From the NCBI GenBank assembly GCA_016787285.1, contig JAEUUV010000138.1:1-35316 (forward strand): a stretch of DNA of 35,316 nt, in the 5' to 3' direction. Below, piece after piece: positions 16,561 to 35,316 of the stretch (its first letter is position 1; every line of letters starts with the position of its first letter). The notes under the pieces are model-generated. The model worked only from the letters and a program-made list of their open reading frames with translations, had not been told where the DNA came from and did no database searches. A program made the translations under genes and the position numbers. This DNA comes from Saprospiraceae bacterium (GTDB lineage: Bacteria > Bacteroidota > Bacteroidia > Chitinophagales > Saprospiraceae).

Positions 16561-19500
16561 TTACCTGCTAATCGTCACGTCGCCGCTGAACACCTCCACT
16601 ACGCCGTCAATAAACTCCACCTCAATCATCCAGGCAAACACCGCCGGATTCATCGGCTGACCGCGGAATGTGCCGTCCCAACCTATGTTGGGGTTGTTCG
16701 GCTGAAAATCGTTCAACTGGAATACTGCTTCACCCCATCGGTTGAACAACTGCATGGTCTTGATATTTTTCACCGTGTTCGGCTTGGCAAATACCGTGAA
16801 AATGTCGTTCTCTCCGTCGCCATTGGGCGAAAACACATTCGGCACGTACAGATACCGGCGCCGATCCACGAACACAGTGATTTTGTCGTCGTCGCTACAA
16901 CCGCCCGTTGTCACCACCGTAACCGAGTACGTCGTCGTTACAAATGGTGCGATGCCCTGGGTGAAACACACCGTGCAGTCCGTCGTATCCAGCGGCGGCC
17001 CCCAAATAATGGACTGGATGCTGTCTGCCGGCACATTCGCCAGCACCTCCAGCGTTGCACTGTCGCCAATGGGTATGCTTTCCGGCCCGCTCAGTTCCAC
17101 CTCGAACGGCGGTGGCGCATTCACCACGATCGTTTCGGCTGCCTCACATCCGCTTGCGTCTTCCACCCGAATGTCGAACACACCCGAACTCAGGCCCGAA
17201 AATACATTCGAAACCTGTAGCCCGCCGCCGTTCAGCGAATACCGGTACGGCGGAATACCGCCCGAGGCCTGTACCGTGATGGTGCCGTCGCGGCGACCGA
17301 AACACGTAATGTTGGTGACCAAAAATGCAATTGTAACCGGTGCCGGCTCTGTGAGGGTTGCGGTAGCCGTTGCCGTGCAATTGTTGGCGTCCGTTACCGT
17401 CAGCGTGTAGGTGCCTGCCGTCAAACCGGTAGCCTGTACCGATGTGCTGCCTGACGACCATGCGTAGGTGTAAGGCGGAAGGCCTCCGCCCACAACCACC
17501 TGGGCTGTGCCGTCGTCACCGCCTTCGCAACTGATGCCGAAGCCGCCGTAGTCCGAGGTCGTCACCGCGCCGGGTACCGGCGGCAGCAACTGAACTATCG
17601 TCGCTTGAGCCGTGGCCGAGTATCCGGTGGACGCCGTGATAACCACGGTATAGGTTCCGGCAGGCAAGCCGCTCACCACTTGCGGGGTGTTCAGCGCATT
17701 CACAGAGCCGGTGGCCACCGAGTTGCCGCCCTGCCGCACATCGTACTGGAACGGCGGGATACCCAACGTGGCCGTCAGCGTCAGGGTACCCGTCGCGGAG
17801 GCGCAGGGAATATTCGAGCCGACCACGCTGACCTGCGCACCGCAGTTGGCCGGAGGCAGCAACGAAGTCGTCGTGATAACCGTGCTGTCGCAACCAAACT
17901 GGTTGGTCAGCACCACCGTTTGCACGCCTACCGATGCCGCATCGCAGGTCGTCAGGGAAATGTTGGTGGTGTTGCTCGGCAGCAATATCACTGTTTCGGT
18001 CACGATACTGTCGCAGCCGTACTGATTGGTCAGGTTGTACACAAACACACCGTCGTTGTTTGGATTGCAAGTCGTGGACTGTACCGAAACTGTGTTGCTC
18101 GGTAGCAATGAAACCGTAGTTACGATGGTGCTGTCGCAGCCCGCAGCGGTGACGAGCGTTTCGGAGAAAACACCTGCCATGGCCGGGTCGCAAGTCGTAG
18201 CCGTCAGCGGTGTGGGCGGAATCGGAACAAAACTCACCGTGGTCGTCACGATACTGTCGCAGCCGTACTGGTTGAAATAACCTTGCGCAAAAATGCCCAC
18301 ATTTGCCGGGTTGCAGGTTGTTTCCGCCACATCCGTAGTATTGCTCGGCAACAATGTGACAGTCGTCACGACGGTGCTGTCGCAGCCCGCAGCCGTAGTT
18401 AGTGTCTGCGAAAACACACCGGCAGCACCCGGATTACACGTTGTAGTGCTCACCGGTGTGGGCGGAATGGCAAAAAACGTAACTGTTGTGGTGACAATGC
18501 TGTCGCACCCGTACTGGTTGGTCAAATCCTGTACAAATGTGCCGACGTTTGCCGGGTTACAACTCTGCCCGGACAGTGCAGTGGTATTGCTCGGTAGCAG
18601 CGATACCGTCGTCACGACCGTGCTGTCGCATCCCGCTGCCGTGAGGAGCGTTTCGGAGAAAACTCCGGCCAGTGCCGGGTCGCAGGTGGTGGCTGTCAGC
18701 GGGGTTGGGGGTATGGCAAAAAACGACACCGTTGTGGTTATGATACTGTCGCAGCCATATTGGTTGCTCAGGTTTTGCACGAATGTGCCGATTTCAGCAG
18801 GGTTGCAACTTTGCTCATCAATGGATGTCGTGTTACTTGGCAACAGAGAAACAGTGGTCACGATCGTACTGTCACACCCGTATTGATTGGTCAGTACGTT
18901 CGTGAATACCCCGACCTGTGCCGGGTCGCAAGTGGTTAGCGCTACCGGCGTTTGGTTACTTGGCAACAGCGTTACCGTGGTCACAACCGTGCTGTCGCAG
19001 CCTTCGGCAGTGGTGTAGGTTTGGCTAAACACGCCCGCCGCTGCCGGATCGCAAGTCGTAAGCGGAACTTGTGTGATCGGAAGCCCGGCAAAGGAAACCG
19101 TTGTAATCACCACACTGTCGCAGCCAATAGACGAGACATAATTATCATAAAAAACGCCAATCTCTGCCGGATTGCAGGAGGCTGAAAACAGGAGCACCGT
19201 GTCGGACAGCGAGTAGTTCACCGTTAGGGTAACTGTACTGTCACAGCCATACTGGTTGGTGAGATTTTGCACAAAAACTCCGGTGAGTGCAGGATCGCAA
19301 CTGGTGCCGAACAGGTTGGTCGTACTGGTCGGATTCAGGTTTACCGTTGTGATGACCACACTGTCGCAGCCGTTCAATTGGCTGAAGGTTTGCGAAAACA
19401 CGCCCACCTGGGCTGGGTCGCAGGAGCCGGTGACGATCTGCGTGGTATCAATTTCGAATACGGTCAGTGTGGTAATAATCACGCTGTCGCAGCCAAAGAT

Positions 19501-21693
19501 GCTGTTCAGGCTGTCGTTGTACACGCCCGAAGTTGTTTGCAAGGCGCCACCCAGCAAAATGGATTCGCCTTCACAAATTTGAGCCGTTGCATTGACGGTG
19601 TAGTTCGGCTGCACCACGGCTGATGCACCGCCACTTATTACTGCCGTACAAGTTGGAGTAGAACCGTCGTTGGCACTTATCAGGGAGTAGTTGGTATTGG
19701 CTGCAGGCGTGAGCGTAACGGTATGCCCATTGGAGATGTCGGTGAGAGTATTATTTTGTGAACCGTTCGACCAGACTACGTCAAACGGCGCGTTTCCGGT
19801 CGTGCTGAATGTGAGGGTAATACTCTGCCCGGCACAAATTTGACCGCCGCCACTAAGGGCGACGGTAGGCAAGGGCGCCACCTGTACGGTCCGGCAAATC
19901 GGCGGGATACTGCCACAAGCATTTGAAACAGCCACACATACCTGTCCGCTGGACGCATTGGCAAAATTAACACTTATGGTATCGCCCGAACCGGTCAGCA
20001 CGGCGCCCGGGGGTACTGTCCAGTTGTAATTCGTGCCGAGTTGGAACGTGTCCAATGTAAACAAATAAGCGCCTCCATTGGCGCAAACAGCACCAGGCCC
20101 GCTCAACTGGGGCGGAGCGATAGGTTGTTGTACCACAATCGGCAAACACGCGGGGGCAGATGCACCACACGCGTTATTGGCTGTCACACAGAGTGGGCCG
20201 TTCAGGATAGTATCCCAGGTGATTTGAATGGAATTTGGAGGTATTGAAGTAAACGGAATACCGCCGGGAGTTGTCCAGACAAAAGATGTGGGAGGCGGCG
20301 CGCCGTTAGCCGTTACCGTGTAGATAACCGTTGAATCACCACAAGGGTTGGGATTGCCCGCAAGTGTTGGCGTTTGTGGTGTGGCAAAGTCGGCCAATAC
20401 GGTGACACAAGAGGTGTCTCTACAAAATACGCCTCCCCGGGCGTGTGTAACAATAAGGCAATACTGACCGGGTTGATTCACCTGCACAGTTGGTTGGTTG
20501 GAAAGCCCTACGATGCCGGGGCCGCTCCAGTTGTACAAGGTGATGCCGCCAAATGCTGCTGCGGAGTTGATTGGCGAAGCGCTCCCGTCCAGCGTTACCA
20601 CTTTGTTGCTGTCGCAATCCAACATTTTCGGCGTAGCTATGATTGCCATTGGTTCCATCAAAGCCAAATAAAAGTTGATGATACTGTCGCAACCTAAGTA
20701 GCCCTTACAAACATGCTGGTATCCGCCAGTAATGTTGTACTCTTCGCCACAAACTACATGGTTGTCTGGGGCGCATTTATTTATCTGAAATAACGGCGAA
20801 TTATATGTCGGAACAGGTTTAATCCGGCATGTAACCACACTGTCGCAGCCCTGGTACGTCTCGTATGTATTCACGTAGGTACCCGGCAGGTCGTAAAAGT
20901 TACCGGAGCACTCCACGGTTTCGCCCGCGCATTGGAGCACTTCGATCAGTGTTGCCTCCCGACGGCCAATCTCGATGTCCTGGCAATTTTCATTTGGGCA
21001 AGTAGTACTCATCACGCAAATCTGAGCAGGCCCTTGCTCCAGCCAGTTGATCGCAACCTGCTGTACGTTGGTAGATGGACCGACAAACGAGCCGGCACCC
21101 GGCGGGTTGATACTCCAGTTGCCTGGAATGTTACTCGTGTAGACTTGCGCGCCGGTTGGCAAACATACCAAGGGATTGAAATTTCCAATGATTGGATTGG
21201 AGCCGTTTATGGCGTAATCACAAATAGCCCCGGAACAACCATCAATCGTCATGTAATACGTTTGGCCGGGCACCAGATTATTTCCAGTGATCGTGTACAT
21301 ACCACCGGGACTCATGCCGGAAACGCAAGGCCCCTCAAAAGTGAAACTATTACAGTCCGTAGTTGACAATATTGCCGCCTGTAAACAACTACCCGAGGAA
21401 CATCCCAATACCTCAAATGTGAAGTTTACAGTCGTTGCATCTGCCACAAATGCAAACCAGTGGTTGTTCTCAATCGAACTGCACCAGGAAGGGGGCAAGG
21501 ATATCGGAGCATCCGGCGTTGTAGCCCCCATGTAACAATTCAACTCGGCGGGACTGGCCATCACACACGCATCCGCTGCATTTACCGAAGGCATTGGAAT
21601 AGGACACGGCGCTGTATTGCACTGCGCCTGTGCCTTTTCATGCAGCACTTGTGAAAAAACGATGATCAAACCAATTGTAAAAATTCGATTCAT
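16561..21693 (-). CDS. Giant T9SS type B surface protein with GCDS repeats (copy A)
   Basis: A 1,710-residue exported protein. A signal peptide (1-24, ending AQAQ) is followed by a Cys-rich N-terminal region, two PKD-like domains (around PNPCGDSTVIYTV and GAVCANGGAYLFTL), 13 tandem 41-residue repeats with the core GCDSxVxTTV (about 757-1289) and SprB-like repeats (CEGGDDGTAQV..., CFGRRDGTITVQASGGIPPYRYSL). The C-terminal gliding-motility-associated domain (YVPNVFSPNGDGENDIF... to the end) is the sorting signal of type B T9SS cargo. It is expected to be exported through T9SS and held on the cell surface, as an adhesin or gliding-related protein; the precise role is unknown. The start at 21693 aligns with the signal peptide of copy B; a frame to 21723 would need a TTG start. 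Copy B ends 36 bases upstream, so the two are likely co-transcribed. Confidence 0.9.
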   Translation of the reverse strand: MNRIFTIGLIIVFSQVLHEKAQAQCNTAPCPIPMPSVNAADACVMASPAELNCYMGATTPDAPISLPPSWCSSIENNHWFAFVADATTVNFTFEVLGCSSGSCLQAAILSTTDCNSFTFEGPCVSGMSPGGMYTITGNNLVPGQTYYMTIDGCSGAICDYAINGSNPIIGNFNPLVCLPTGAQVYTSNIPGNWSINPPGAGSFVGPSTNVQQVAINWLEQGPAQICVMSTTCPNENCQDIEIGRREATLIEVLQCAGETVECSGNFYDLPGTYVNTYETYQGCDSVVTCRIKPVPTYNSPLFQINKCAPDNHVVCGEEYNITGGYQHVCKGYLGCDSIINFYLALMEPMAIIATPKMLDCDSNKVVTLDGSASPINSAAAFGGITLYNWSGPGIVGLSNQPTVQVNQPGQYCLIVTHARGGVFCRDTSCVTVLADFATPQTPTLAGNPNPCGDSTVIYTVTANGAPPPTSFVWTTPGGIPFTSIPPNSIQITWDTILNGPLCVTANNACGASAPACLPIVVQQPIAPPQLSGPGAVCANGGAYLFTLDTFQLGTNYNWTVPPGAVLTGSGDTISVNFANASSGQVCVAVSNACGSIPPICRTVQVAPLPTVALSGGGQICAGQSITLTFSTTGNAPFDVVWSNGSQNNTLTDISNGHTVTLTPAANTNYSLISANDGSTPTCTAVISGGASAVVQPNYTVNATAQICEGESILLGGALQTTSGVYNDSLNSIFGCDSVIITTLTVFEIDTTQIVTGSCDPAQVGVFSQTFSQLNGCDSVVITTVNLNPTSTTNLFGTSCDPALTGVFVQNLTNQYGCDSTVTLTVNYSLSDTVLLFSASCNPAEIGVFYDNYVSSIGCDSVVITTVSFAGLPITQVPLTTCDPAAAGVFSQTYTTAEGCDSTVVTTVTLLPSNQTPVALTTCDPAQVGVFTNVLTNQYGCDSTIVTTVSLLPSNTTSIDEQSCNPAEIGTFVQNLSNQYGCDSIITTTVSFFAIPPTPLTATTCDPALAGVFSETLLTAAGCDSTVVTTVSLLPSNTTALSGQSCNPANVGTFVQDLTNQYGCDSIVTTTVTFFAIPPTPVSTTTCNPGAAGVFSQTLTTAAGCDSTVVTTVTLLPSNTTDVAETTCNPANVGIFAQGYFNQYGCDSIVTTTVSFVPIPPTPLTATTCDPAMAGVFSETLVTAAGCDSTIVTTVSLLPSNTVSVQSTTCNPNNDGVFVYNLTNQYGCDSIVTETVILLPSNTTNISLTTCDAASVGVQTVVLTNQFGCDSTVITTTSLLPPANCGAQVSVVGSNIPCASATGTLTLTATLGIPPFQYDVRQGGNSVATGSVNALNTPQVVSGLPAGTYTVVITASTGYSATAQATIVQLLPPVPGAVTTSDYGGFGISCEGGDDGTAQVVVGGGLPPYTYAWSSGSTSVQATGLTAGTYTLTVTDANNCTATATATLTEPAPVTIAFLVTNITCFGRRDGTITVQASGGIPPYRYSLNGGGLQVSNVFSGLSSGVFDIRVEDASGCEAAETIVVNAPPPFEVELSGPESIPIGDSATLEVLANVPADSIQSIIWGPPLDTTDCTVCFTQGIAPFVTTTYSVTVVTTGGCSDDDKITVFVDRRRYLYVPNVFSPNGDGENDIFTVFAKPNTVKNIKTMQLFNRWGEAVFQLNDFQPNNPNIGWDGTFRGQPMNPAVFAWMIEVEFIDGVVEVFSGDVTISR
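17827..19425 (-). repeat. Coding array of 13 x 123 bases in copy A
   Basis: Thirteen units of exactly 41 codons run without gaps. Each begins S/T-C-(D/N)-P, has GVF or GTF at positions 8-10 and GCDS at 19-22, so each unit carries two cysteines 18 residues apart. Units 6-12 alternate between a QYGCDS type followed by FFAIPPTP and an AAGCDS type followed by SLLPSNTT, giving a higher-order period of 246 bases. Confidence 0.9.
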
Positions 21694-21729
21694 AGTCATG
21701 CTTTGTTTAAAATATTTTCTCAAGAATAA

Positions 21730-24700
21730 TTACCTGCTGATGGTCACATCACCGCTGTACACTTCCACCACGCCGTCAATAAATTCCACCTCGATCATCC
21801 AGGCAAATACTGCCGGGTTCATCGGCTGGCCGCGGAAAGTACCGTCCCAACCGATGTTCGGGTTGTTCGGCTGAAAATCGTTCAACTGGAATACGGCTTC
21901 GCCCCAGCGGTTGAACAACTGCATGGTCTTGATATTCTTTACCGTGTTCGGTTTCGCAAATACTGTGAAAATGTCGTTCTCCCCATCCCCATTGGGGGAA
22001 AACACATTCGGCACATACAGATACCGGCGCCGATCCACGAATACGGTAATCTTGTCGTCGTCGCTGCAACCGCCCGTTGTCACCACCGTAACCGAGTACG
22101 TCGTCGTTACAAACGGCGCGATGCCCTGTGTGAAACAAACCGTGCAGTCCGTCGTGTCCAGCGGCGGCCCCCAAATGATGGACTGGATGCTGTCTGCCGG
22201 CACATTAGCCAGAATTTCCAGGGTCGCGCTGTCGCCGATGGCGATACTCTCGGGACCGTTCAGTTCCACCTCGAATGGCGGCGGCGCATTCACCACGATC
22301 GTTTCGAGGGCCTCACAGCCGCCGGCGTCTTCCACCCGGATGGCAAACACACCCGAACTAAGGCCGGTGAATACATTCGACGCCTGTAGCCCACCGTTGT
22401 TCAGCGAGTACCGGTAGGGCGGAATACCACCCGAGGCCTGCACCGTGATGGTACCGTCGCGGCGACCGAAACACGTAATATTGGTGACCAAAAATGCAAT
22501 CGAAACCGGTTCCGGCTCGGTCAGGGTCGCCGTGGCCGTGGCTGTGCAGTTGTTGGCGTCCGTAACCGTCAGCGTATAAGTGCCCGCCGTCAGGTTGCCG
22601 GCTTGTACCGACGTGCTGCCCGAGGACCACGCATAAGTGTAAGGCGGAAGGCCGCCGCTCACAGCCACCTGGGCTGTGCCGTCGCCGCCGCCTTCGCAAC
22701 TGATGCCGAAGCCCCCGTAGTCCGAGGTCGTCACTGCGCCGGGTTCCGGCGGCAGCAACTGCACCACCGTCGCCTGTGCCGTCGCCGAGTAGCCGGTGGA
22801 CGCCGTTATGACCACAGTGTAGGTGCCGGCGGGCAAGCCGCTTACCACATGCGGAGTGTTCAGCGCATTCACCGAGCCGGTAGCCACCGAATTAACGCCT
22901 TGCCGCACATCGTACTGGAACGGCGGGATACCCAGTGTGGCTGTCAGTGTCAGCGTGCCCGTCGTGGATGCACAGGGAATATTCGAACCCACCACGCTCA
23001 CCTGAGCGCCACAATTGGCCGGTGGCAGCAGCGAAGTGGTCGTGATGACCGTGCTGTCGCAACCAAACTGGTTGGTCAGCACCACCGTTTGAACGCCTAC
23101 CTGTGCAACATCACAAGTGCTCAGCGAAATATTGGTCGTATTGCTTGGCAGCAAAAGCACTGTTTCGGTTACGATACTGTCGCAGCCGTACTGGTTGGTC
23201 AAGTTGTACACAAACACCCCGTCGGCATTCGGGTCGCAGGTCGTGGATTGAACCGACACCGTGTTGCTCGGCAACAACGTCACCGTGGTTACAAGGGTAC
23301 TGTCGCAGCCTGCAGCGGTGACGAGTGTTTCTGAAAAAACACCAGCCATGGCCGGGTCGCAAGTAGTTGCCGTCAGCGGCGTAGGGGGGATGGCGAAGAA
23401 TGTCACTGTTGTAGTCACGATGCTGTCGCAGCCATACTGGTTGGTCAGGTCCTGGATAAAAGTACCAACTTCAGCGGGGTTGCAACTTTGGCCGGATAGC
23501 GAAGTCGTATTGCTTGGCAGCAAAGACACTGTGGTTACGAGTGTACTGTCACAGCCCGCTGCAGTGACCAGGGTTTGGGAAAACACACCTACCATTGCCG
23601 GATCGCAGGTAGTGGCCGTCAGCGGCGTAGGTGGTATAGCGAAGAACGACACCGTTGTGGTCACGATACTGTCACAGCCATACTGATTGGTCAAATTCTG
23701 AACGAATGTGCCGACCTCGGCTGGATTACAACTTTGGCCGGTCAGCGCTGTCGTGTTGCTCGGCAACAAGGAAACGGCCGTAATCACCGTGCTATCACAA
23801 CCGTTTTGATTGGTCAGAACCTGCATGAAGGTACCTACGTTAGCCGGATCGCAATCGGCGGCGGACAAATACGTTGTGTCGCTGGCCAACAAAGAAACGG
23901 TAGTCATCAAGACACTGTCGCAGCCGTCGGCGGTGACTAATGTCTGGAAAAACACGCCGGTAGCCCCCGGGTCACAGGATGCTGCCGTGAGTTGGGTGGT
24001 GTCGAGGTGGAAAAAGGAAATTGTGGTAAACACCGTGCTGTCACAACCGTTTTGGTTGGTCAAATCCTGTACAAAAACACCTACTTCCGACGGGTTGCAA
24101 CTCGCGCCAAACAACAATGTAGTATCGCTGGCAAGGAGTGTTACCGTGGTTATGATGATGCTGTCGCAGCCTTCGACCGACTGGAGTGTTTGACTAAATA
24201 CACCTACTCCTGCAGGATCGCATGTGGCGTCGGTCAGGTTGGTAGTGTAGGAATCCGAGTATGTCACAGTAGTGGTTACGATACTATCGCACCCCCACTG
24301 GTTGGTCAAATTTTGCACAAAAACTCCCACATTCGCCGGGTCGCAACTGGTTGTGAACAACGATATGGCATCGGAAGGTAACAGGTTTATTGAAGTAATT
24401 ACCACACTGTCGCAGCCGTTGGTTTGCGACAAAATCTCGGTGGTAGTGCCGACCAGTGCAGGATCACAGTTGGTGCCGATTACAACTATCGTAGTGTCAA
24501 CGACATTAACCGTAAGTGCGCTGATGATGACACTGTCGCAGCCATGCAAGGTGTTCAACGTATCATAATACACGCCGGACGTGGTTTGATTGGCCCCGCC
24601 AAGCAACATGGACTCGCCCTGGCAAATGACAAACGATTGGTTGGTTGTTGCCGGATTCCATACGGTTACCGTCTCGTTATCGTTGGATGCAGTTACGCAA

Positions 24701-26904
24701 GCATTCGGAGCAGTGTTGTCGGCCACAGATACGAGGCTGTATGTGGTAGTTTGCAACGGATTAACCGGAACAACATGCCCGTTGGAAATATTATTCAGCG
24801 TGGTGGTTTGATTCCCATCGAACCAGACGACATCAAATGGCCCGTTGCCGCTGAGTATAAAGGTCAGATCTACTGACTCGCTGAGGCAAATTTCGACGCT
24901 GCTACTCAAATCAACCGCAGGCGCCGGAGATACCTGTACATTTCGGCAAACAGGAGGAATGGAACCGCATACATTCGATGCCGTCACACATACCTGCCCG
25001 CTCGTTGCGTTTGTAAAATCCACGCTAATCGAATCACCGGAACCGGTGAAAACGGCGCCTGCCGGAACAACCCAGTTGTAATTAACCCCGGCTTGCTGAG
25101 TATCCAGTGTGAACAAGTAAGCACCGCCGTTGGTACACACGGTGGCCGGACCCGACATTTGAGGCGAGACAATTGGCTGAAGTACGGTAATCGGAATGCA
25201 AGCCGGGCTTGATGCGCCACAGGAGTTATTGGCTGTAACACAAAGCGTATCCAGCACCACATTTGTCCAGGTGATCTGGATAGAATCAAACCCGAGTGTT
25301 GTGATCGGGGTATTGTTTTTGGAGGTCCACACGAATGAGGTCGGCGGTGGATTACCGTTTGCGGTTGCGGTGTAAATAACGGTCGAGTCGCCGCATGGAT
25401 TCGGATTCCCGGAAATGATGGGCAGCGGAGGAATAGCACTATTTGCCAGTACCGTTATGCAGGTTGTATCGGCGCAATAAACCCCGCCTCGAGCATGTGT
25501 AACGGTGAGGCAATACTGGCCGGGCTGGTTCACTTGCACATCGGGTTGATTAAATGCGCCTACAATGCCGGGGCCGGTCCAATTGTACAGCGTGATGCCT
25601 CCCGGTGCGTTATTCGGCGGCGAAGCACTACCGATAATGGTCACCGTCAGGTTGCTGTCGCAGTCCAGAATATCCGCCGGAGCGATAATCGCCTGCGGTT
25701 CCATGATGGCTAAGTTGACATTCACGATGCTGTCGCAACCCAGATAATTTTCACAAACCTCGGAATGCAAGGCCGTCTCGAACAGGGTGTTATCACAAAT
25801 TTTGTACTCATTCGGACCGCAGAGATTTACAAATGAAAAGGGAGAAAAAGTGGTTGGAACCAACCGAATGGAACATCTCACAATACTGTCGCAGCCAAGA
25901 TCGGTTGTCAGGGTAACCGGGAAAGTACCGGGAGCGGAAAATTCCTGTCCGGCACATGATACACTGCCGGGCGGGCTTTGACATAAGTTATAAATTTCTG
26001 TAGTCGTGACGGTCGGGATCAACTTGATCTTACACGTCACTATGCTGTCGCAGCCGCTATCGGCTTTCAGAACGACCGGAAAATTGCCCGGTGCAGCAAA
26101 GGTTTTGCCGGCACAGGTAGTAGTTTTACCCTGACAGATGTAAGTTTCTTCATCCGTATAAACGACCTCTCCGATGTTGATATCAATGCATAACTCCGGA
26201 GCATTGGGGCATGTGGTGCCCTGAGCACAAACCTGAGCGGGACCGGATTGCTGCCAAACTATGGAGGCCTGTGTTTGGGCCGCGTTTACAGTCATCGTAC
26301 CAGCCGTTGGAGGGTTAAGTGTCCAGTTGGAAGGCGTGTTTGTGGTATACACACTTGGAACGGGAGAAGGCAAACAAACACCGGAAGTTGGTCCATTTAT
26401 GGTTGGGTTGACACCATTTATGGAATAATCGCACTGCGCGCCTGAGCTCCCATCTACACAGATATAATACGTTTCGCCGGGGATAAGCGGGGAAGCAACA
26501 AGCGTGGCAGACCCCCCGGAGGGAATATTTCCAATACACGGAGAGACAAACTGAAAGTTGATACAATCAGTTGTGGAAAGGACGGCAACCTGAATACCGT
26601 TGCCAACTGCACAGCCGTACACGTCAAATGTAAAGCTAGCACTGGTGGCATCGGCTACAAAAGCAAACCAGTGGTTGTTGTGAATTGCCGAACACCAAAA
26701 GGGCGGAAAAGAAACTGGCTGATCCTCCGTAGTGGCACCGAAATAACAATCCAGTGCAGCAGGGCTGGGATTTACGCACGCTTCCTGCGCATTGACAGAT
26801 GGCGTGGGCACTACGCATTGCGACGGATTGCATTGCGCAAAGCCTTGAGAAGGATTAAAAAAAATAAATATTCCTATCACCGTCAGGGGAAAAAATAATC
26901 TCAT
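21730..26904 (-). CDS. Giant T9SS type B surface protein with GCDS repeats (copy B)
   Basis: A 1,724-residue paralogue of copy A with the same order: signal peptide (1-24, ending GFAQ), Cys-rich region with extra QEFSAPGTFPVTL-type units, two PKD-like domains, twelve 41-residue GCDS repeats (about 812-1303), SprB-like repeats and the type B T9SS sorting domain. The N-terminal halves of the two copies differ clearly, while the last about 155 residues differ at a single position (VEVF versus VEVY). The ATG at 26904 is the only sensible start. The 238-base region upstream, shared with the divergent phosphatase gene, has no clear minus-strand promoter; CTGCTTTG at 26930-26937 is a weak -7 candidate. 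As with copy A, a surface role is inferred and no ligand is known. Confidence 0.9.
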   Translation of the reverse strand: MRLFFPLTVIGIFIFFNPSQGFAQCNPSQCVVPTPSVNAQEACVNPSPAALDCYFGATTEDQPVSFPPFWCSAIHNNHWFAFVADATSASFTFDVYGCAVGNGIQVAVLSTTDCINFQFVSPCIGNIPSGGSATLVASPLIPGETYYICVDGSSGAQCDYSINGVNPTINGPTSGVCLPSPVPSVYTTNTPSNWTLNPPTAGTMTVNAAQTQASIVWQQSGPAQVCAQGTTCPNAPELCIDINIGEVVYTDEETYICQGKTTTCAGKTFAAPGNFPVVLKADSGCDSIVTCKIKLIPTVTTTEIYNLCQSPPGSVSCAGQEFSAPGTFPVTLTTDLGCDSIVRCSIRLVPTTFSPFSFVNLCGPNEYKICDNTLFETALHSEVCENYLGCDSIVNVNLAIMEPQAIIAPADILDCDSNLTVTIIGSASPPNNAPGGITLYNWTGPGIVGAFNQPDVQVNQPGQYCLTVTHARGGVYCADTTCITVLANSAIPPLPIISGNPNPCGDSTVIYTATANGNPPPTSFVWTSKNNTPITTLGFDSIQITWTNVVLDTLCVTANNSCGASSPACIPITVLQPIVSPQMSGPATVCTNGGAYLFTLDTQQAGVNYNWVVPAGAVFTGSGDSISVDFTNATSGQVCVTASNVCGSIPPVCRNVQVSPAPAVDLSSSVEICLSESVDLTFILSGNGPFDVVWFDGNQTTTLNNISNGHVVPVNPLQTTTYSLVSVADNTAPNACVTASNDNETVTVWNPATTNQSFVICQGESMLLGGANQTTSGVYYDTLNTLHGCDSVIISALTVNVVDTTIVVIGTNCDPALVGTTTEILSQTNGCDSVVITSINLLPSDAISLFTTSCDPANVGVFVQNLTNQWGCDSIVTTTVTYSDSYTTNLTDATCDPAGVGVFSQTLQSVEGCDSIIITTVTLLASDTTLLFGASCNPSEVGVFVQDLTNQNGCDSTVFTTISFFHLDTTQLTAASCDPGATGVFFQTLVTADGCDSVLMTTVSLLASDTTYLSAADCDPANVGTFMQVLTNQNGCDSTVITAVSLLPSNTTALTGQSCNPAEVGTFVQNLTNQYGCDSIVTTTVSFFAIPPTPLTATTCDPAMVGVFSQTLVTAAGCDSTLVTTVSLLPSNTTSLSGQSCNPAEVGTFIQDLTNQYGCDSIVTTTVTFFAIPPTPLTATTCDPAMAGVFSETLVTAAGCDSTLVTTVTLLPSNTVSVQSTTCDPNADGVFVYNLTNQYGCDSIVTETVLLLPSNTTNISLSTCDVAQVGVQTVVLTNQFGCDSTVITTTSLLPPANCGAQVSVVGSNIPCASTTGTLTLTATLGIPPFQYDVRQGVNSVATGSVNALNTPHVVSGLPAGTYTVVITASTGYSATAQATVVQLLPPEPGAVTTSDYGGFGISCEGGGDGTAQVAVSGGLPPYTYAWSSGSTSVQAGNLTAGTYTLTVTDANNCTATATATLTEPEPVSIAFLVTNITCFGRRDGTITVQASGGIPPYRYSLNNGGLQASNVFTGLSSGVFAIRVEDAGGCEALETIVVNAPPPFEVELNGPESIAIGDSATLEILANVPADSIQSIIWGPPLDTTDCTVCFTQGIAPFVTTTYSVTVVTTGGCSDDDKITVFVDRRRYLYVPNVFSPNGDGENDIFTVFAKPNTVKNIKTMQLFNRWGEAVFQLNDFQPNNPNIGWDGTFRGQPMNPAVFAWMIEVEFIDGVVEVYSGDVTISR
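22996..24471 (-). repeat. Coding array of 12 x 123 bases in copy B
   Basis: Twelve 41-codon units with the same C-(D/N)-P ... GCDS pattern as in copy A. Only two QYGCDS/AAGCDS dimers (units 7-10) are present against three in copy A, while the N-terminal units are more diverged (QWGCDS, QNGCDS, ADGCDS). This suggests the dimer is the unit of recent gain or loss. Confidence 0.9.
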
Positions 26905-29314: not shown

Positions 29315-30334
29315 TTATTGCCGAAACTCCGGGTTGTTCAAAAACCCCTGGTCGGTCAGGCTGTGCAAAAATGCCAGCATATCAGCGCGTTCGGAGGGCG
29401 TCAGGCCGAAAGGGCGTAGCAAATGGCTTTTGTTGGGATGATTTTTCCCGCCGGATTGGTAATGGTCAAGTACGGCATCGAGGGTAGGCAAACTCCCGTC
29501 GTGCATGTACGGCGCCGTTATAGCCACATGGCGCAGGGTGGGTATTTTGAATACTGCTAGGTCGCTTTCCCGACCGGTGAGGCGAAAGCGTCCGGGATCG
29601 GCATAGGTTTCGTAGAGGCCGTTGTTGGCAAAGTCCTGATTCGAGAACAGAAACCCGGAGTGGCATTTTCCGCAGCCCGTTTTTTCACTCTGAAACAGCT
29701 CGTAGCCGCGCTTGACCGATGCCGATACCGCATTGGTTTTGTTTTGAAAAAACCAATAGTCAAATGGTGAATTTCCGCTCACAAGGGTGCGTTCAAACGC
29801 CGCAATGGCGCGTGTAATCACAAAAGCATCTGGTTTCCGGTCGTAGGCTTTTTGCGCCTGTGCCACGTATTCAGGTATCCGGTTGAGGCGATCGGCTATT
29901 TCCAAAATATTGAAATCAAACTCGTTATGTTCCTGAATCGGCACCAGTACCTGCATTTCAAGAGTAGGCACCCCACCCTCCCGCAGCAGGCTGTTCAGGT
30001 AACCGACATTGGCCAGGGTCGGCGCGTTTCGGGTACCCGGGCGGCCTTCGATACCCGGAGTTTGCGGCAAACTGTCGGCAAATGCCAGGTGCGGACGATG
30101 GCACGTCGCGCAGGAAAGCGTGCTGTCGCGAGACAGGGCCGGATCAAAAAACAGCCGCTTGCCCAATTCCACACGCGAGCGCGTCAGAGAATTGTCCGTC
30201 GGGATTTCCATCGCCGGAAATCCCGACGGTACGGTCAGCGCGTATGCATCCGGGTCGGCTGTAGGCGGATCTTTGACGCAGCCGGCTAAAAGGGAAAAAG
30301 CAAAAATCCCGGGAATCAACCGGTAGAATGTCAT
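29315..30334 (-). CDS. MauG/MbnH-like di-heme cytochrome c peroxidase family lipoprotein
   Basis: A 339-residue lipoprotein (lipobox SLLAGC, cysteine 19) with two c-type heme sites, CATCH (75-79) and CGKCH (221-225). The family motifs LGKRLFFDPALSRDSTLSC, GRPGTRNAPTLANV and FKIPTLRHVAITAPYMHDGSLPTL are all present. The family includes bacterial cytochrome c peroxidase, MauG and MbnH; the last oxidises a tryptophan in MbnP to kynurenine. Because the preceding gene encodes an MbnP family protein, an MbnH-like role is the best guess, but peroxidase activity is not excluded and the second axial heme ligand cannot be fixed by eye. The ATG at 30334 is two bases after the mbnP-like stop; a GTG at 30340 would overlap it. 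Confidence 0.85.
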   Translation of the reverse strand: MTFYRLIPGIFAFSLLAGCVKDPPTADPDAYALTVPSGFPAMEIPTDNSLTRSRVELGKRLFFDPALSRDSTLSCATCHRPHLAFADSLPQTPGIEGRPGTRNAPTLANVGYLNSLLREGGVPTLEMQVLVPIQEHNEFDFNILEIADRLNRIPEYVAQAQKAYDRKPDAFVITRAIAAFERTLVSGNSPFDYWFFQNKTNAVSASVKRGYELFQSEKTGCGKCHSGFLFSNQDFANNGLYETYADPGRFRLTGRESDLAVFKIPTLRHVAITAPYMHDGSLPTLDAVLDHYQSGGKNHPNKSHLLRPFGLTPSERADMLAFLHSLTDQGFLNNPEFRQ

Positions 30335-30336
30335 GG

Positions 30337-31332
30337 TCACTCAATAATAACCAGTTGTTTACGTGCAATCAGCCGGGAGGCATCGTAAAACGCGTAGTGG
30401 TACAACCCGGGCGGCACATCAACCAGTTGAATATCCAGCACACCGGCGTGCGGCAGGTTCTCAAACCGGCGCAAAGGCTGCCCGAGCGTATTGGTTAACA
30501 CCACAACAAGCGGCCCCTGTGCCTTCAGGTCGTATCGAACGGAAGTAAGCGTACGTGCCGGGTTTGGGGAAGCCGAAATCTGCGCCGACTGAAGCGTCGG
30601 CATACCTGTACTGCTTGCCTGGCCGAATGCGATAAAGTTCTTGGTCGCTGCATTTTGCATCATAGTGGCATTGATCGGGCCGCTGCCATGCTGGGTCAGG
30701 TTGCCGCTCATATCCAGTTTGTCGAACAGGCGGGCATAGTCCAGTTTCAAATCCACTTGCAACACACCGCTTGCGAGTGTGCCTGTCCCGGTAAGTTCTA
30801 CTGTTTGATACAGGCTGTCGCCGAGGTTATGGTACTGGAAAATCGTTTCCGGAATGTTGTCGCCGTTTTTGTCCAGCAAGCCTTCGATTGCCATGAACCG
30901 GTATCCTGCCGTCCAGCCCCAGTGCATGGTGGGATTCTGGTTTGCCAGCGGATGCCCGGCGGGATATGCCGACGGATCGAGGTGGTTGTGCGCGGCATCC
31001 ACGCCGAGGTGCAGGGTCAGTCCCGTTATCTGCTCCACCGGCCAGATGCCCGCGCCGTATGTGCGGTTCGGCGTGTTGGCATTTACCAGCAGGTACACAT
31101 TGTTGAGCGGCAACTTGCTGCCGTCGGGCTTGTTCAGTTCGATCTCCGCGATGTAGAATTCCGCGCGGGTCAACAAGGCTTTTCGTCCGTCGGGAAGGGT
31201 AAAAATCGTGGAGTTGAGCGCCAGCGGTTCCGAGCCGACCCGATGGTCAAAACGAAAAACCACGTCGTTGTTTTGGGCAAAAACAGAGCCGGCCACCACT
31301 ATGAGGGCCGACAAAAGAACAGACTGTTTCAT
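30337..31332 (-). CDS. MbnP family protein with type A T9SS sorting domain
   Basis: A 331-residue exported protein with signal peptide 1-20 (ending SVFAQ). Residues 24-240 form an MbnP-type domain: VVFRFDHRVGSEPLALNSTIF, AEFYIAEIEL, a His-containing stretch GVDAAHNHLDPSAYPAGH and the conserved MHWGWTAGYRFMAIEG (W138, W140). The last 80 residues (SASPNPARTLTSVRYDL... to ARKQLVIIE) are a type A T9SS sorting domain, so the protein should reach the cell surface. MbnP of methanotrophs binds copper and carries a kynurenine made from tryptophan by MbnH. It lies between the heavy-metal-domain gene (six bases upstream) and the di-heme gene. Copper binding here is an inference from family and context. 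Confidence 0.85.
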   Translation of the reverse strand: MKQSVLLSALIVVAGSVFAQNNDVVFRFDHRVGSEPLALNSTIFTLPDGRKALLTRAEFYIAEIELNKPDGSKLPLNNVYLLVNANTPNRTYGAGIWPVEQITGLTLHLGVDAAHNHLDPSAYPAGHPLANQNPTMHWGWTAGYRFMAIEGLLDKNGDNIPETIFQYHNLGDSLYQTVELTGTGTLASGVLQVDLKLDYARLFDKLDMSGNLTQHGSGPINATMMQNAATKNFIAFGQASSTGMPTLQSAQISASPNPARTLTSVRYDLKAQGPLVVVLTNTLGQPLRRFENLPHAGVLDIQLVDVPPGLYHYAFYDASRLIARKQLVIIE

Positions 31333-31338
31333 GGTTGA

Positions 31339-31767
31339 TCAATTTTTAGGCACCTCGGGGTCTTCGCATGATTTGGCGGTACTCGGAGCACCGCTTCGGT
31401 CATATTTGCAGCAGCCGTGCAGGTCGTTGTACACGGCATCGGGGGCTTTGTAACCCACATTGTCGTAACCGGACTGTGCCACGGCTTTCTGGATTACATC
31501 GGCAGAGGTTTTAGCCGGGTCAAAAACGACCGTCAACTGGTCGGTATCTACATCCCAGTTGGCTTTGACCGCACCGGCGCCGAGGGCTGCTTTCTCGATA
31601 ATGCGCTGACACATACCGCAGTTTCCGAGGACGAGAAAAGTCTCCGTTTTTTCGGATTGAGCCGTTGTCGTTTTGGCAGATTTTTTAACCATGCCGGACT
31701 GAGCCTGCAATCCAAAGGTAAACAGGGCGGCAAAAATCAGGATCAATCGAACTCTCAGGTGTACCAT
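31339..31767 (-). CDS. Secreted heavy-metal-associated (HMA) domain protein
   Basis: A 142-residue protein with a signal peptide (1-23, ending LQAQS) and an HMA domain (about 42-108) whose metal site reads GNCGMCQ (C50 and C53), the CxxC of copper chaperones and P-type ATPase metal-binding domains. The C-terminal tail has further cysteines, HGCCKYD (C119, C120) and SCED (C134), which could also bind metal. It probably delivers or buffers copper(I) outside the cytoplasm, since it has an export signal. The start at 31767 gives the signal peptide; a frame to 31794 is possible but adds a poor N-terminus. Its stop is six bases before the MbnP-like start, which places it in the same operon. Confidence 0.83.
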   Translation of the reverse strand: MVHLRVRLILIFAALFTFGLQAQSGMVKKSAKTTTAQSEKTETFLVLGNCGMCQRIIEKAALGAGAVKANWDVDTDQLTVVFDPAKTSADVIQKAVAQSGYDNVGYKAPDAVYNDLHGCCKYDRSGAPSTAKSCEDPEVPKN

Positions 31768-31806
31768 GGCGTGTGCTTTTATTTTGGTGTGCAAAAATGC
31801 GGCTTT

Positions 31807-32121
31807 TCAGACGATTTGTGCACGCAGCCGGTTCCACGGGCCGGCGTTGTACGCCTCAACCCCGTTCTTTTTGAGCAAGCCGACCGCCGCACCACTGCGA
31901 GCGCCGCTTCGGCACACTGCGATGATCGGTACTTTTTTGTTTTTCAGCATAGCCAGTTTTGAGGCGATCTGGTCGAGCGGGATGTTGATGGAACCGGACA
32001 CATGGCCGGATTTAAATTCTTCCGGAGTGCGTACATCCACTACGACAGCACCGGCTGCGATTAAATTTTTGAAGTCAACATCAGAAGCACCGCCGAAGAG
32101 CGATTTCAGGAACTTGAGCAT
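31807..32121 (-). CDS. Single-domain rhodanese
   Basis: A 104-residue cytoplasmic protein with a complete rhodanese domain: VVDVRTPEEFKSGHVSGSINIPL and the active-site loop CRSGAR (cysteine 70). Rhodaneses carry sulfur as a persulfide on this cysteine and transfer it to thiols or cyanide. There is no signal peptide. It lies 41 bases after the other rhodanese and 39 bases before the HMA gene on the same strand, so all are likely one transcript. The six-residue loop type fits sulfur rather than phosphate or arsenate transfer. The partner is unknown. Confidence 0.88.
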   Translation of the reverse strand: MLKFLKSLFGGASDVDFKNLIAAGAVVVDVRTPEEFKSGHVSGSINIPLDQIASKLAMLKNKKVPIIAVCRSGARSGAAVGLLKKNGVEAYNAGPWNRLRAQIV

Positions 32122-32162: not shown

Positions 32163-32447
32163 TTAGTTGGCGAGCATAATTTCCATATCGAACAGTCCGC
32201 CGCCGTTGTACAGGTCGGTCAGCCCTGCCTGTTTGAGCATTTGAACCGCAATCCCGCTACGGTTGCCGCTACGACAATACAGCACACGCGGAGCCGGCAG
32301 TGCGGCAATCTCCGCAACACGCTGCGACACTTCATCAAGCGGAATATTAATCGCGCCTTTGACGTGCCCCATTTGAAATTCTCCGGGAGTCCGTACGTCA
32401 ATCACGGCAGTTCCGGGCGTACGTACAATTTCTGATAAAGATGACAT
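32163..32447 (-). CDS. Single-domain rhodanese, first gene of the cluster
   Basis: A 94-residue rhodanese with AVIDVRTPGEFQMGHVKGAINIPLDEV and the loop CRSGNR (cysteine 58). It is a diverged paralogue of the next gene. The start at 32447 (MSSLSEIVRTPG) is chosen because the frame to 32504 reads into the leader of the promoter at 32513. It is the promoter-proximal gene of a probable operon rhodanese-rhodanese-HMA-MbnP-MbnH. A role in persulfide handling is known for the family; its link to the metal genes downstream is inferred from position only. Confidence 0.87.
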   Translation of the reverse strand: MSSLSEIVRTPGTAVIDVRTPGEFQMGHVKGAINIPLDEVSQRVAEIAALPAPRVLYCRSGNRSGIAVQMLKQAGLTDLYNGGGLFDMEIMLAN

Positions 32448-32512
32448 TGGTGATAAAAGTGTTGTTGCGTGAAAGAAAGGTGCAAAGGTTCTCCTTGTAA
32501 CCAATTACGCCA

Positions 32513-32558
32513 CAAAGGTACCGGCATGCTAAAACGAAAATCCGTGACTGATGTCACA
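32513..32558 (-). promoter_or_regulatory. Promoter and Crp/Fnr-type operator of the rhodanese-MbnP cluster
   Basis: The minus strand has TACCTTTG (32520-32513) as a -7 box. Centred 34 bases upstream is CCGTGAC-TGAT-GTCACA (32542-32558), a palindrome close to the Crp-type consensus TGTGA-N6-TCACA. If the box is centred at -7, the palindrome centre falls at about -41, the usual place for a class II activator site. No -33 TTTG is present, which fits an activator-dependent promoter. Confidence 0.6.
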
Positions 32559-32565
32559 TCAGCCC

Positions 32566-34182
32566 TTATTCCTGCACGATCGTCTTGACGGTCGCCTTTT
32601 CCGCTCCGGTTTCGAGCGTTACCAAATACGTTTGCCCGGCTGCTATGTGGTCAAGCCGCCGGGTAATGATGTTTTCTCCCACGAACAAGCCGGACACCTG
32701 TTCTTGCACAATGATCTTGCCGGTCATATCTCCAATAGTCAATTTTACCGACCCGGCTTTTTCAAGGTTAAATTTGATACCAAACACGCCGTTATTCGGG
32801 TTTGGAAACACCCGCATACGCAATGTCCCGACACTCTGCGGGTTCAAGTTGTGTATGGCGGTAGCCGTGTTTTTCACCACAAATACTTTGAAAATCATAC
32901 TGCTCGCGCTGCTTTCCACTCCAGTATTAATCCAGAAAATATTCGGCGCCGTGCTGGCGATGCCGCCGTAAATGTAGCCCGCGTGCACCGTATCGCCGGA
33001 GAGGTCATCCATTTTCAGTACACCATTGGGATATGCCGGAAGGTTTTCCAGTGCAATGAACTCCGCACCTGCTCCCAGCAAAGCAGGCATTTCCACAGGC
33101 AACTTGAACTCCGCCATAGTACCGTCGGCACGGCGAGTGACGCGTGCAATGGTTTTGACAAACGGCACGTCGTTGTCCTGAACCAGCGTGCCGAGACTGT
33201 CGTAGAATTGCGCAATTCCCCCGAAAAATACCGTGTGCATGGCGTTTTCCTGTGCCGAATACAAGGGCAAAACCGCACAATGGTAGTGGTTGTAGTACTG
33301 CGAAAAATCGTTGTTTACGACGTATCCACTGCTGTCAATGTTGACGCAGTTCAGAAACGGCAAATCAACCGTTGGCTGAAACACACCGGAAAAGGCGGTC
33401 AACCCCTCCTCCCCGTTTGGCATGATCTGAGCAGTAACGTTGTAGTCCCGGCGGTGCAAATTGATGGAATCGGTAGCCGGGGGAAAATGTGTCACTACCA
33501 GATTGCTTCCATCATCCGACAGGCCAAATGGCCGTATCTGATCAGTATATTTCTGCTCAAACCCCGGGCCATGGGCCGGCCCCATCGGATTGTAACGCCC
33601 CATGAATCGCTGCCCGCCCACCAAATACCAGGTGTCGTATATTTTGGATAAATGCCCGCCTGTCACGGAAAACTTTTCGTCTGTAATTTGCCGGAAATAA
33701 TTAGCGAAAGGCTGCCCGGAAACAACTGCTCCTATTACCGCAGGTACGTCAACCGCGGTCAATTTGTCGTACGTAACGTGGTCGCCCGCAGTGCCACTGT
33801 ACCCGTATCCGCCTGTGATGTACAAATAGCGCCCTTCCTGATGAAATTGCATATTGGTCGAACTCAATTGCTCTTGCATGGCTACCGGCAAAGATGTGAG
33901 CGGCGCCGACCATTCTTGCAGGTTTACCGGGTCAATGACGATCAGTTGGTTGTTGTGTCCGGCAATATCGAAAGTGGCAAACGGCTGCCGGCGGTGCAAG
34001 CCGTCGAGCCGACCTCCGAGAATGAGCCACTTGCCGTCGTGCCTGCCATACGCAAACGACTGCAGGCCACCGATTGCGGGCACGGTTACAGGCTCAAGGT
34101 AGATACTGAACGGAGTGGTCTGGGCCACCAGACTTGCAGAAATCAGCATAAAAACGGCAGCATAAAAAGTAAACCTTTTCAT
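32566..34182 (-). CDS. Beta-propeller-like secreted protein with type A T9SS sorting domain
   Basis: A 538-residue exported protein with a signal peptide (1-21, ending SLVAQ). The main part contains kelch-like motifs spaced along the chain: GRHDGKWLILGGRLDGLH, GRYLYITGGYGYSG, DTWYLVGGQRFMGRYN, MHTVFFGGIAQFYD and HAGYIYGGIAS, each with the Y/L-x-x-GG core, suggesting a beta-propeller. The C-terminal about 80 residues (MRVFPNPNNGVFGIKFNLE... to VKTIVQE) are a type A T9SS sorting domain. I do not know a function. The start at 34182 (MKRFTFYAAVF) gives a normal signal peptide; 34194 is an alternative ATG. Its promoter has the same palindrome as the rhodanese-MbnP cluster, so it may belong to the same regulon. 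Confidence 0.78.
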   Translation of the reverse strand: MKRFTFYAAVFMLISASLVAQTTPFSIYLEPVTVPAIGGLQSFAYGRHDGKWLILGGRLDGLHRRQPFATFDIAGHNNQLIVIDPVNLQEWSAPLTSLPVAMQEQLSSTNMQFHQEGRYLYITGGYGYSGTAGDHVTYDKLTAVDVPAVIGAVVSGQPFANYFRQITDEKFSVTGGHLSKIYDTWYLVGGQRFMGRYNPMGPAHGPGFEQKYTDQIRPFGLSDDGSNLVVTHFPPATDSINLHRRDYNVTAQIMPNGEEGLTAFSGVFQPTVDLPFLNCVNIDSSGYVVNNDFSQYYNHYHCAVLPLYSAQENAMHTVFFGGIAQFYDSLGTLVQDNDVPFVKTIARVTRRADGTMAEFKLPVEMPALLGAGAEFIALENLPAYPNGVLKMDDLSGDTVHAGYIYGGIASTAPNIFWINTGVESSASSMIFKVFVVKNTATAIHNLNPQSVGTLRMRVFPNPNNGVFGIKFNLEKAGSVKLTIGDMTGKIIVQEQVSGLFVGENIITRRLDHIAAGQTYLVTLETGAEKATVKTIVQE

Positions 34183-34231
34183 CGAACGAATCATATTGGC
34201 GACCAATGGTCAAATGAAAAATAAATTCGGG

Positions 34232-34276
34232 CAAAGTTCGTCCGGATGGCTTTTCAACACCGTGACAATTGTCACA
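34232..34276 (-). promoter_or_regulatory. Promoter and Crp/Fnr-type operator of the beta-propeller gene
   Basis: The minus strand has GAACTTTG (34239-34232), a -7 box lacking the TA. Centred 33 bases upstream is CCGTGAC-AATT-GTCACA (34260-34276), with both half-sites identical to those at 32542-32558. The poor -7 box and the missing -33 element suggest dependence on an activator. Confidence 0.55.
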
Positions 34277-34429: not shown

Positions 34430-35316
34430 ATGATCCGACTTTTCCTGTTTTCCAACCTGTTTCTCCTCCTTGCACAAGGCATCACCGCGCAAACGGCTAC
34501 CCTCCGCGGCGCCGTAACCGATGCCGACAACAACGCTCCGGTAACCGACGCTGCCGTAGTGCTCACCGGCACAGGCATCTTCGCCGCTACCGACAACCGC
34601 GGCAAATTTGTACTCGAAAACCTGCCGGCCGGTTCGTACAACATCAGCGTCAGCCGTGCAGGCTACCTGCCCGGTGAGGCTGCCGCGACCCTGACCGACG
34701 GCCAGGAACTGCAACTCGCTATCACCCTGCGCCGCGACCCAACCAGCACTTCCGCCAACGCCGCAGATGTGCCGACGATCACCCTCGAAGAAGCCGAAGA
34801 ACAAGCCGACGGCATCGGTGAAATAGCCAACCTGTTGCACGCCTCGCGCGATGTATTTCAGAACGCTGCCAATTTCGGCTGGAGCGTATTCCGCTTTCGC
34901 GAACGCGGCTATGACTCCGAGAACTTTCCGTTGTTCTTGAACGGTATCAGCATCAACGACCCCGAGTCGGGCATCGCGTTTTTTGGCGAATTAGGCGGTA
35001 TGAACGACGTGCTGCGCAACCGCCAAAGTGTGATCGGCCTCGATCCGGCCGAATTCGCCTTTTCCGAAATCGGCGGCGCATCAATCATTGATACCCGGGC
35101 CAGTACGCAGCGCAAGCAAATCCGCGCGTCGTACGCCGTCAGCAACCGGACGTACAACCACCGCGTCATGCTCACTGCCAGTACGGGCCTCATGCCGGGG
35201 GGCTGGGCAGTGTCGCTTTCGGGCAGCCGGCGCTGGGCGCAGGAAGGCTGGCACGACGGCACGTTCTTCGACGGGTACTCGTACTTTTTGTCGGTAGACA
35301 AAATTATCAACGAACG
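34430..35316 (+). CDS. TonB-dependent receptor with carboxypeptidase-regulatory-like N-terminus (cut by window edge)
   Basis: The frame is open to the right edge, with 295 codons visible. The signal peptide (1-21, ending GITAQ) is followed by a carboxypeptidase-regulatory-like domain (about 22-100: LRGAVTDADNNAPVTDAAVVLTG and LENLPAGSYNISVSRAGY). A plug domain starts around EEADGIGEIANLLHASRDVF and contains FRFRERGYDSENFPLFLNGI. The barrel of such outer-membrane receptors would follow outside the window. They import siderophores, metals, vitamins or glycans with energy from TonB. The substrate cannot be told; the position next to metal-related genes is suggestive only, and it lies on the opposite strand with its own promoter-like box. 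Confidence 0.88.
   Translation, partial: MIRLFLFSNLFLLLAQGITAQTATLRGAVTDADNNAPVTDAAVVLTGTGIFAATDNRGKFVLENLPAGSYNISVSRAGYLPGEAAATLTDGQELQLAITLRRDPTSTSANAADVPTITLEEAEEQADGIGEIANLLHASRDVFQNAANFGWSVFRFRERGYDSENFPLFLNGISINDPESGIAFFGELGGMNDVLRNRQSVIGLDPAEFAFSEIGGASIIDTRASTQRKQIRASYAVSNRTYNHRVMLTASTGLMPGGWAVSLSGSRRWAQEGWHDGTFFDGYSYFLSVDKIINE

Follow-up and report, generated by a model that had tools for sequence, protein, structure and literature searches.

A Crp/Fnr-type palindrome at a fixed distance from the -7 box recurs before sulfur genes in Saprospiraceae

Two palindromes and the genes behind them

The window, meaning the whole 35,316-nt stretch analysed here (contig JAEUUV010000138.1 of a Saprospiraceae bacterium), carries two minus-strand units that are each preceded by a copy of the same palindrome (Table 1). 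Unit 1 encodes two rhodaneses, an HMA-like protein, an MbnP-family protein, and an MbnH-like di-haem protein, and is tightly packed, with intergenic gaps of 41, 36, 6, and 2 bases. Against NCBIfam models, the MbnP-family protein reaches 41.1 bits for TIGR04052 (below the cut-off of 140) and the MbnH-like protein 271.6 bits for TIGR04039 (below the cut-off of 362.85). The other unit consists of the gene for a protein that is secreted and carries a T9SS sorting tail; no relative of solved structure was found for this protein at E<=1.

Table 1. Operators, -7 boxes, and genes of the two units (lengths run from the first G of the core to the last G of TTTG)
Feature	Positions	Strand	Remarks
Operator 1, CCGTGACTGATGTCACA	32542..32558	palindrome	exact match; upstream of the rhodanese-rhodanese-HMA-MbnP-MbnH unit
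Operator 1 core, GTGAC-N4-GTCAC	32544-32557		45 nt to TTTG
Operator 2, CCGTGACAATTGTCACA	34260..34276	palindrome	exact match; upstream of the T9SS-tail gene
Operator 2 core, GTGAC-N4-GTCAC	34262-34275		44 nt to TTTG
-7 box of promoter 1, TACCTTTG	32513..32520	minus	predicted transcription start ~32508
-7 box of promoter 2, GAACTTTG	34232..34239	minus	predicted transcription start ~34227
Extra AnnTTTG box, CATTTTTG	31792-31799	minus	before the HMA-like gene
Extra AnnTTTG box, AACCTTTG	32483-32490	minus	before rhodanese 1
Rhodanese 1, first gene of unit 1	32163..32447	minus	PF00581, 55.3 bits
Rhodanese 2	31807..32121	minus	PF00581, 57.9 bits
HMA-like protein	31339..31770	minus	PF00403, 24.6 bits, slightly below cut-off 24.8
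MbnP-family protein	30337..31332	minus	PF20243, 108.3 bits, above cut-off
MbnH-like di-haem protein	29315..30334	minus	PF03150, 157.6 bits
T9SS-tail gene (the "propeller" of the sequence-only reading)	32566..34182	minus	PF18962, 32.7 bits; TIGR04183

An earlier reading of this DNA from the sequence alone had described CCGTGAC-N4-GTCACA at these two places, nearly equally spaced from a -7 box on the minus strand and in promoters without a -33 TTTG. All of this is borne out. The two copies are the only zero-mismatch matches to the 17-mer in the window, the lengths are 45 and 44 nt, and reading the sequence confirms that neither promoter has a -33 TTTG. Promoter 2 has a TTG that ends 15 nt before its -7 box. 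Unit 1 may have additional promoters at the two extra AnnTTTG boxes listed in Table 1. We discarded a role for operator 2 in serving the gene at 34430 on the plus strand, where the first TTTG lies 11 nt past the core, not 26-27 nt.

A third exact GTGAC-N4-GTCAC, absent from the sequence-only reading, is located at 18356-18369 within a very long minus-strand frame. The surrounding frame encodes repeats that read V-T-V-V-T and the site stands without promoter context; this core is probably a chance product of repetitive coding sequence. Two giant neighbouring frames occupy the minus strand at 16561-21723 (1720 aa) and 21730-26904 (1724 aa), and an identical 17-mer at 16909 and 22078 suggests a tandem pair of paralogues.

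Recurrence of the site and its promoter geometry

Across the 5,556,013 bases of the organism's own genome, GTGAC-N4-GTCAC occurs at 11 places, versus 3 for a reversed-pattern control. Being its own complement, the motif is reported twice at each place, once per strand. The genome scan proposed by the earlier reading favours that reading, in that matches inside genes are the minority: seven of the 11 cores precede genes and four lie inside long frames (C41:18356 and one each on contigs C56, C105, and C192). When half-sites of the form GTGAY/RTCAC were accepted and a TTTG was sought 15-45 nt later, 15 matches were obtained versus 2 controls. Nine of these have a length of 44-45 nt and one of 47 nt; the others measure 39, 48, 50, 51, and 59 nt, and the 59-nt case arises from an additional TTTG that follows one of those nine promoters.

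The ten own-genome promoters with lengths of 44-45 or 47 nt include those of the two window units. On contig C78, TauE and an MBL-rhodanese protein lie downstream, whereas the promoter on C106 leads a rhodanese with a lipoprotein-like start and that on C166 a YgaP-like membrane protein. One promoter on contig C112 is followed by genes for a SoxA/TsdA-like cytochrome, then a SoxB-like protein, then a DsrE protein, and another by an OprD-like porin and then a TonB receptor. On contig C266, a single palindrome (L023, 4690-4703) sits between divergent genes for carbonic anhydrase and DUF2490-DabA-DabB and has -7 boxes in both directions, at 45 nt one way and 47 nt the other. CO2 uptake through DabAB and carbonic anhydrase may belong to the sulfur regulon described below.

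A one-mismatch site with equal spacing precedes the gene for another YgaP-like protein on contig C123. Near-sites with this spacing and a TA box were also seen before a pyruvate:ferredoxin oxidoreductase subunit (one mismatch; L075, G000:C194:1279-1323) and a glutamate-synthase-like flavoprotein (two mismatches; L077, G000:C8:3140-3184), and these may be weak members or chance. Two-mismatch sites at the fixed spacing gave 59 matches versus 29 controls and were left out of the evidence.

We scanned 60 genomes, 37 from the genus (own genome included) and 23 from the order, for the strict pattern at a gap of 25-29. The genus genomes hold 84 matches to the strict architecture versus 5 controls, which upholds the conservation in relatives that the earlier reading had wanted checked, and the order genomes hold 5 versus 4. 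All 84 genus matches were read: the length is 45 nt in 59, 44 nt in 18 (that is, 44-45 nt in 77 of 84), and 43, 46, or 47 nt in seven. In 296 genomes of the phylum there are 44 matches, seven of them own, versus 18 controls, which puts the pattern close to background except in some families.

Named genomes were scanned for proteins of the type encoded on contig C78, which are discussed below as candidate regulators, and of 448 relatives 80 loci were kept; Saprospiraceae, Chitinophagaceae, and Flavobacterium are among their sources. These loci (763 kb) contain the strict core 39 times and the reversed control 0 times; 18 of the 80 loci overlap genus-genome stretches already counted, so these numbers and those for the genus come partly from the same DNA. 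When the relaxed core is used, TTTG most often follows at a gap of 26 (42 cases) or 27 (27 cases), with few cases elsewhere. GTGAY-N4-RTCAC is present in 53 of the 80 loci, 43 of which have a TTTG at a gap of 25-29, and is found nowhere in the other 27. The Crp gene has a palindrome near one of its ends in 44 of the 80 loci. Locus L261, from the cultured Sediminibacterium goheungense, combines Crp, TauE, and PDO genes with sites at the usual spacing. At several Niastella loci the palindrome still follows the Crp gene, with no TTTG at the expected place. The 27 loci without even the relaxed site include all 14 examined from the Flavobacterium range (one from a MAG), where TauE follows the Crp gene in both of the loci examined for neighbours. 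At locus L241, from a MAG titled Thermoanaerobaculia, a TauE gene follows a Crp gene of the C78 type whose product shares 86% identity with the own protein; this is probably a misbinned Saprospiraceae contig.

The recurrence of the palindrome is real. Chance repetition of a short palindrome, a reading with which the three control cores in the genome and the four of 11 real cores inside genes would agree, was rejected by the reversed-pattern controls in the genome, in the genus, and in the 80 C78-type loci. The genus-wide number of sites, their spacing, the -7 box, and the coherence of the targets also speak against it, and leave it a negligible probability.

Class II activation by Crp/Fnr proteins uses a site centred near -41.5. 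In Flavobacterium psychrophilum, according to PMC9723704, TAnnTTTG lies at -12 to -5; with the box placed likewise, as was done for the predicted starts in Table 1, the palindrome would be centred at -42.5 for a length of 45 nt and at -41.5 for 44 nt. Under that placement, the fixed distance to the -7 box predicts a class II position. When 84 distinct promoters of 45 nt were profiled, with GTGAY/RTCAC accepted, 96% had the A of the AnnTTTG box, even though the search did not demand it, and no -33 element emerged. One activator specificity acting from a class II position on both window units is supported as the best reading, because the position is fixed genome-wide and genus-wide and the A recurs unforced.

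A repressor that blocks polymerase at -41.5 and is released by sulfide is very improbable. Repressor sites usually tolerate several positions, whereas a single fixed distance, with the site replacing a missing -33 element, is what an activator needs. A repressor would have a precedent in the persulfide regulator BigR, which represses (PMC7315123). The few C78-type and C166-type genes that themselves sit behind a site fit either sign.

Target genes and candidate regulators

The genes downstream from these sites mostly concern sulfide and sulfane sulfur. They encode MBL-rhodanese proteins, SoxA/SoxB-like proteins, YeeE-type transporters, and type III sulfide:quinone reductase (SQR) with DsrC, along with rhodaneses, TauE, SulP, CydA, and, in the own genome, DabAB and carbonic anhydrase. 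The identities of first-gene families rest on Pfam and NCBIfam. A first gene matches a reference protein in 69 of the 84 genus promoters, a rate that, like others of its kind, is not independent because the reference list was enlarged with families first met behind sites. Using "PDO-like" as a label for an MBL domain plus two rhodanese stretches, the 69 comprise PDO-like (18), OprD-like (8), SoxA-like (8), YeeE/SoxT (7), rhodanese (4), type III SQR (3), periplasmic rhodanese (3), and DUF983 (3), which is not a known sulfur family. T9SS-tail protein, YgaP, Crp, Dps, CoA-disulfide-reductase-like, and SulP account for two each; SoxB-like, DUF2490, and carbonic anhydrase occur once each. The remaining 15 promoters have a first gene without a reference match, and the A of the -7 box is missing in seven of these versus one of the 69. 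A further 103 promoters were read from the 80 C78-type loci and 20 stretches chosen from the phylum matches; their first genes are PDO-like (28), TauE (21), Crp (9, one of them C166-type), SoxA-like (6), 13 others, and 26 without a match.

Among the proteins of solved structure, the PDO-like protein is nearest to the MBL-rhodanese proteins 3tp9 and 3r2u, then to MBL proteins and BpPRF, and it matches human-type ETHE1 (4chl) at 1.1e-14. It reaches no curated NCBIfam persulfide-dioxygenase cut-off; the MBL-rhodanese proteins probably oxidize persulfide. The best family for the SoxB-like protein is TIGR04486, at 240.7 bits and below the cut-off of 550, which makes it SoxB-like only. The SoxA-like protein falls below the cut-off of TIGR04484 (31.8 bits against 110) and exceeds that of the SoxA/TsdA domain PF21342 (40.3 bits). 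The type III SQR of genome G026 scores 643.4 bits for NF049943, above the cut-off of 525.

This collection is a sulfur regulon, and not one for metal, haem, or nitrosative stress. The sequence-only reading had named all four as functions that related genes might share, and only sulfur stood. Its proposal of a small regulon of two units also has to be given up in favour of a much larger one.

Among 51 matches to the T9SS-tail protein, 30 loci were read with one mismatch allowed, a gap of 26-28, and an A in the box. A site lies upstream in 10 of 21 loci with at least 56% identity (own included) versus 0 of 9 below 56%, and none of the 80 C78-type loci encodes a homologue. In genomes G020 and G028, a ferritin-like (Dps) gene is located between the site and the T9SS-tail gene. 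At loci L098 (G017), L136 (G028), and L138/L358 (G010), the T9SS-tail gene and an OprD-like porin gene are divergently oriented neighbours, and each promoter of these pairs has its own palindrome, with Dps preceding the T9SS-tail gene in G028. In another family (L325, G099:C5), a single site leads PDO-like, TauE, and a 48% T9SS-tail homologue in a row.

MbnP was considered as a conserved core of the regulon and rejected, with a site in 1 of the 30 MbnP loci read, the own one (1.5 kb flank; 30 of 35 matches had loci). MbnP-MbnH belongs to the regulon only through operon adjacency in one tight gene run. As speculation, MbnP-MbnH and the T9SS-tail protein might serve copper handling or haem-dependent modification of surface proteins under sulfide.

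Eight HTH_Crp_2 proteins are encoded in the own genome, and the likely regulators are two paralogues encoded beside sites, on contigs C78 and C166. Both have the cyclic-nucleotide-binding-like domain and the Crp-type helix-turn-helix of Crp/Fnr proteins, with all scores above cut-off (C78: PF00027 46.2 and PF13545 36.4 bits; C166: 31.1 and 40.3 bits). The C78 protein (186 aa) is cut by the contig end, and its gene shares a contig with the TauE and PDO-like promoters, from which two small frames on the minus strand separate it. The C166 gene ends at the site that precedes the YgaP-like gene. Crp genes of this kind also adjoin sites in other families, in genomes G056, G049, G169, G146, and G339.

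Of the eight proteins, these two alone carry the helix SREVISRL and a CA[LM][ST] motif, both of which are missing from the other six. Where they have A-[LM]-[ST], five of the six other paralogues have F-G-[ED], which we take to be the cyclic-nucleotide pocket, and one has L-G-Y; this replacement means that the pocket motif is lost in both. The two cysteines of CA[LIV]SxxC (C76 and C82) are present in 80 of 80 C78-type proteins, and A77, S79, and S-R-E-V and R-L of the helix are likewise invariant in them. The second cysteine varies among C166-type proteins, being one residue further in the own protein and absent in G005.

These features bear on two other regulators. Ordinary cAMP-CRP control of carbon genes, which the GTGA half-site and the protein family would fit, was rejected on the pocket motif; the targets are not carbon-catabolic either, and we give this reading next to no probability. 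An oxygen- or NO-sensing regulator of the FNR, DNR, or HcpR type, for which sulfur genes would be wanted at the oxic/anoxic boundary, is improbable. Half-sites are alike within the Crp/Fnr superfamily, bd oxidase is among the targets in some genomes, and the C194 near-site precedes a pyruvate:ferredoxin oxidoreductase subunit. Yet most of the matched first genes concern sulfur, and the target families scanned included none for nitrosative stress or denitrification. The FNR iron-sulfur cluster needs four cysteines, and an FNR iron-sulfur regulator was rejected because the alignment of eight C78-type proteins has only two invariant cysteine columns.

C78 orthologues with at least 69% identity occur in 20 of the 37 genus genomes, and a strict site is present in 19 of these 20 versus 9 of the 17 others (Mann-Whitney p 0.005 for site counts, from drafts of differing completeness and uncorrected for kinship). 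When any C78- or C166-type protein at E<=1e-30 is counted, strict sites occur in 27 of 32 genomes with such a protein versus 1 of 5 without (Fisher p 0.008, with the same limits of completeness and kinship). Genome G012 has a C78 orthologue (72%) yet no strict site. Strict sites accompany only non-C78 matches in G005, G006, G007, G009, G017, G026, and G031, and G021 has a non-C78 match only, with one site inside or near an unmatched gene. In the rest of the phylum, a C78-like protein is present in 11 of 11 genomes examined from 27 with sites, only site-bearing genomes having been taken.

The claim of the sequence-only reading that one activator controls both window units is supported as regards a common operator specificity; with two candidate paralogues, two activators that recognise the same DNA may be at work.

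Proposed mechanism and known systems

The site and the regulon are the firm part of our explanation. We consider it likely that the C78 and C166 proteins bind the palindrome as dimers at -41.5/-42.5 and activate. A Crp/Fnr dimer, of the C78 type, the paralogous C166 type, or both, would bind GTGAC-N4-GTCAC, tolerating GTGAY-N4-RTCAC, at promoters whose -7 box is of the AnnTTTG type and in which no -33 element is visible. From there it would recruit RNA polymerase by class II activation. The regulon would answer sulfide and sulfane sulfur through SQR, the MBL-rhodanese proteins (probably persulfide oxidation), rhodaneses and DsrE/DsrC as sulfur carriers, TauE, YeeE-type, and SulP transporters, and SoxA/SoxB-like proteins, with a bd oxidase joining them in some genomes. 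Two of its members would be the rhodanese-HMA-MbnP-MbnH unit and the T9SS-tail gene of the window.

The signal may be persulfide or polysulfide, sensed by the two conserved cysteines; this is a guess, drawn from the target genes and the cysteine conservation, that we hold to be about evenly balanced. Somewhat more doubtful is the full picture of a persulfide sensor of the Saprospiraceae/Chitinophagaceae range, its nucleotide pocket turned into a CA[LIV]SxxC thiol switch, that runs sulfide-to-sulfite oxidation and, in this genome, couples it to CO2 uptake, a T9SS-secreted protein, and an MbnP-MbnH pair. On that picture, these presumed polymer-degrading heterotrophs would be regulated sulfur oxidizers.

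A search of PubMed Central, which is mostly without subscription journals and so gives weak evidence of absence, found no paper on such a Crp/Fnr sulfide regulator among those listed. With a Crp/Fnr regulon of a single promoter geometry, Bacteroidota would have a regulator of sulfide oxidation open to experiment, and the regulon provides context for the T9SS-tail protein family and the MbnP-MbnH pair.

Several known systems resemble this one in part. The class II promoters of E. coli CRP share the fold family, the GTGA half-sites, and, as predicted here, a centre near -41.5, whereas here the pocket motif has become CA[LIV]SxxC, the -7 box is another one, and the targets are sulfur genes. FNR and HcpR/DNR belong to the same superfamily and use related half-sites, and the proteins described here differ from them in having two invariant cysteines and no nitrosative-stress target among the families scanned.

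Other parallels come from the sulfide responses described in PMC7315123. In Acinetobacter baumannii, FisR turns on SQR, PDO, and TauE, BigR governs yeeE-yedE-pdo2, and cydAB rises under sulfide (PMC7315123). In both Acinetobacter and Cupriavidus the SQR-PDO-TauE operon is activated by FisR, a sigma-54 activator, and BigR is a persulfide-sensing repressor that uses two cysteines (same source). The regulon proposed here would share with that of FisR an activator, a sulfide response, and SQR, persulfide dioxygenase (-like here), and TauE targets, and it differs in relying on a Crp/Fnr protein rather than a sigma-54 AAA+ protein, on AnnTTTG promoters, and on many scattered operons. With the BigR regulon it shares YeeE-type transporters and persulfide dioxygenase (-like here), although BigR is a repressor from another family and the regulator here is a probable activator. 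As far as that source goes, the target list overlaps the FisR and BigR regulons, under a different protein family.
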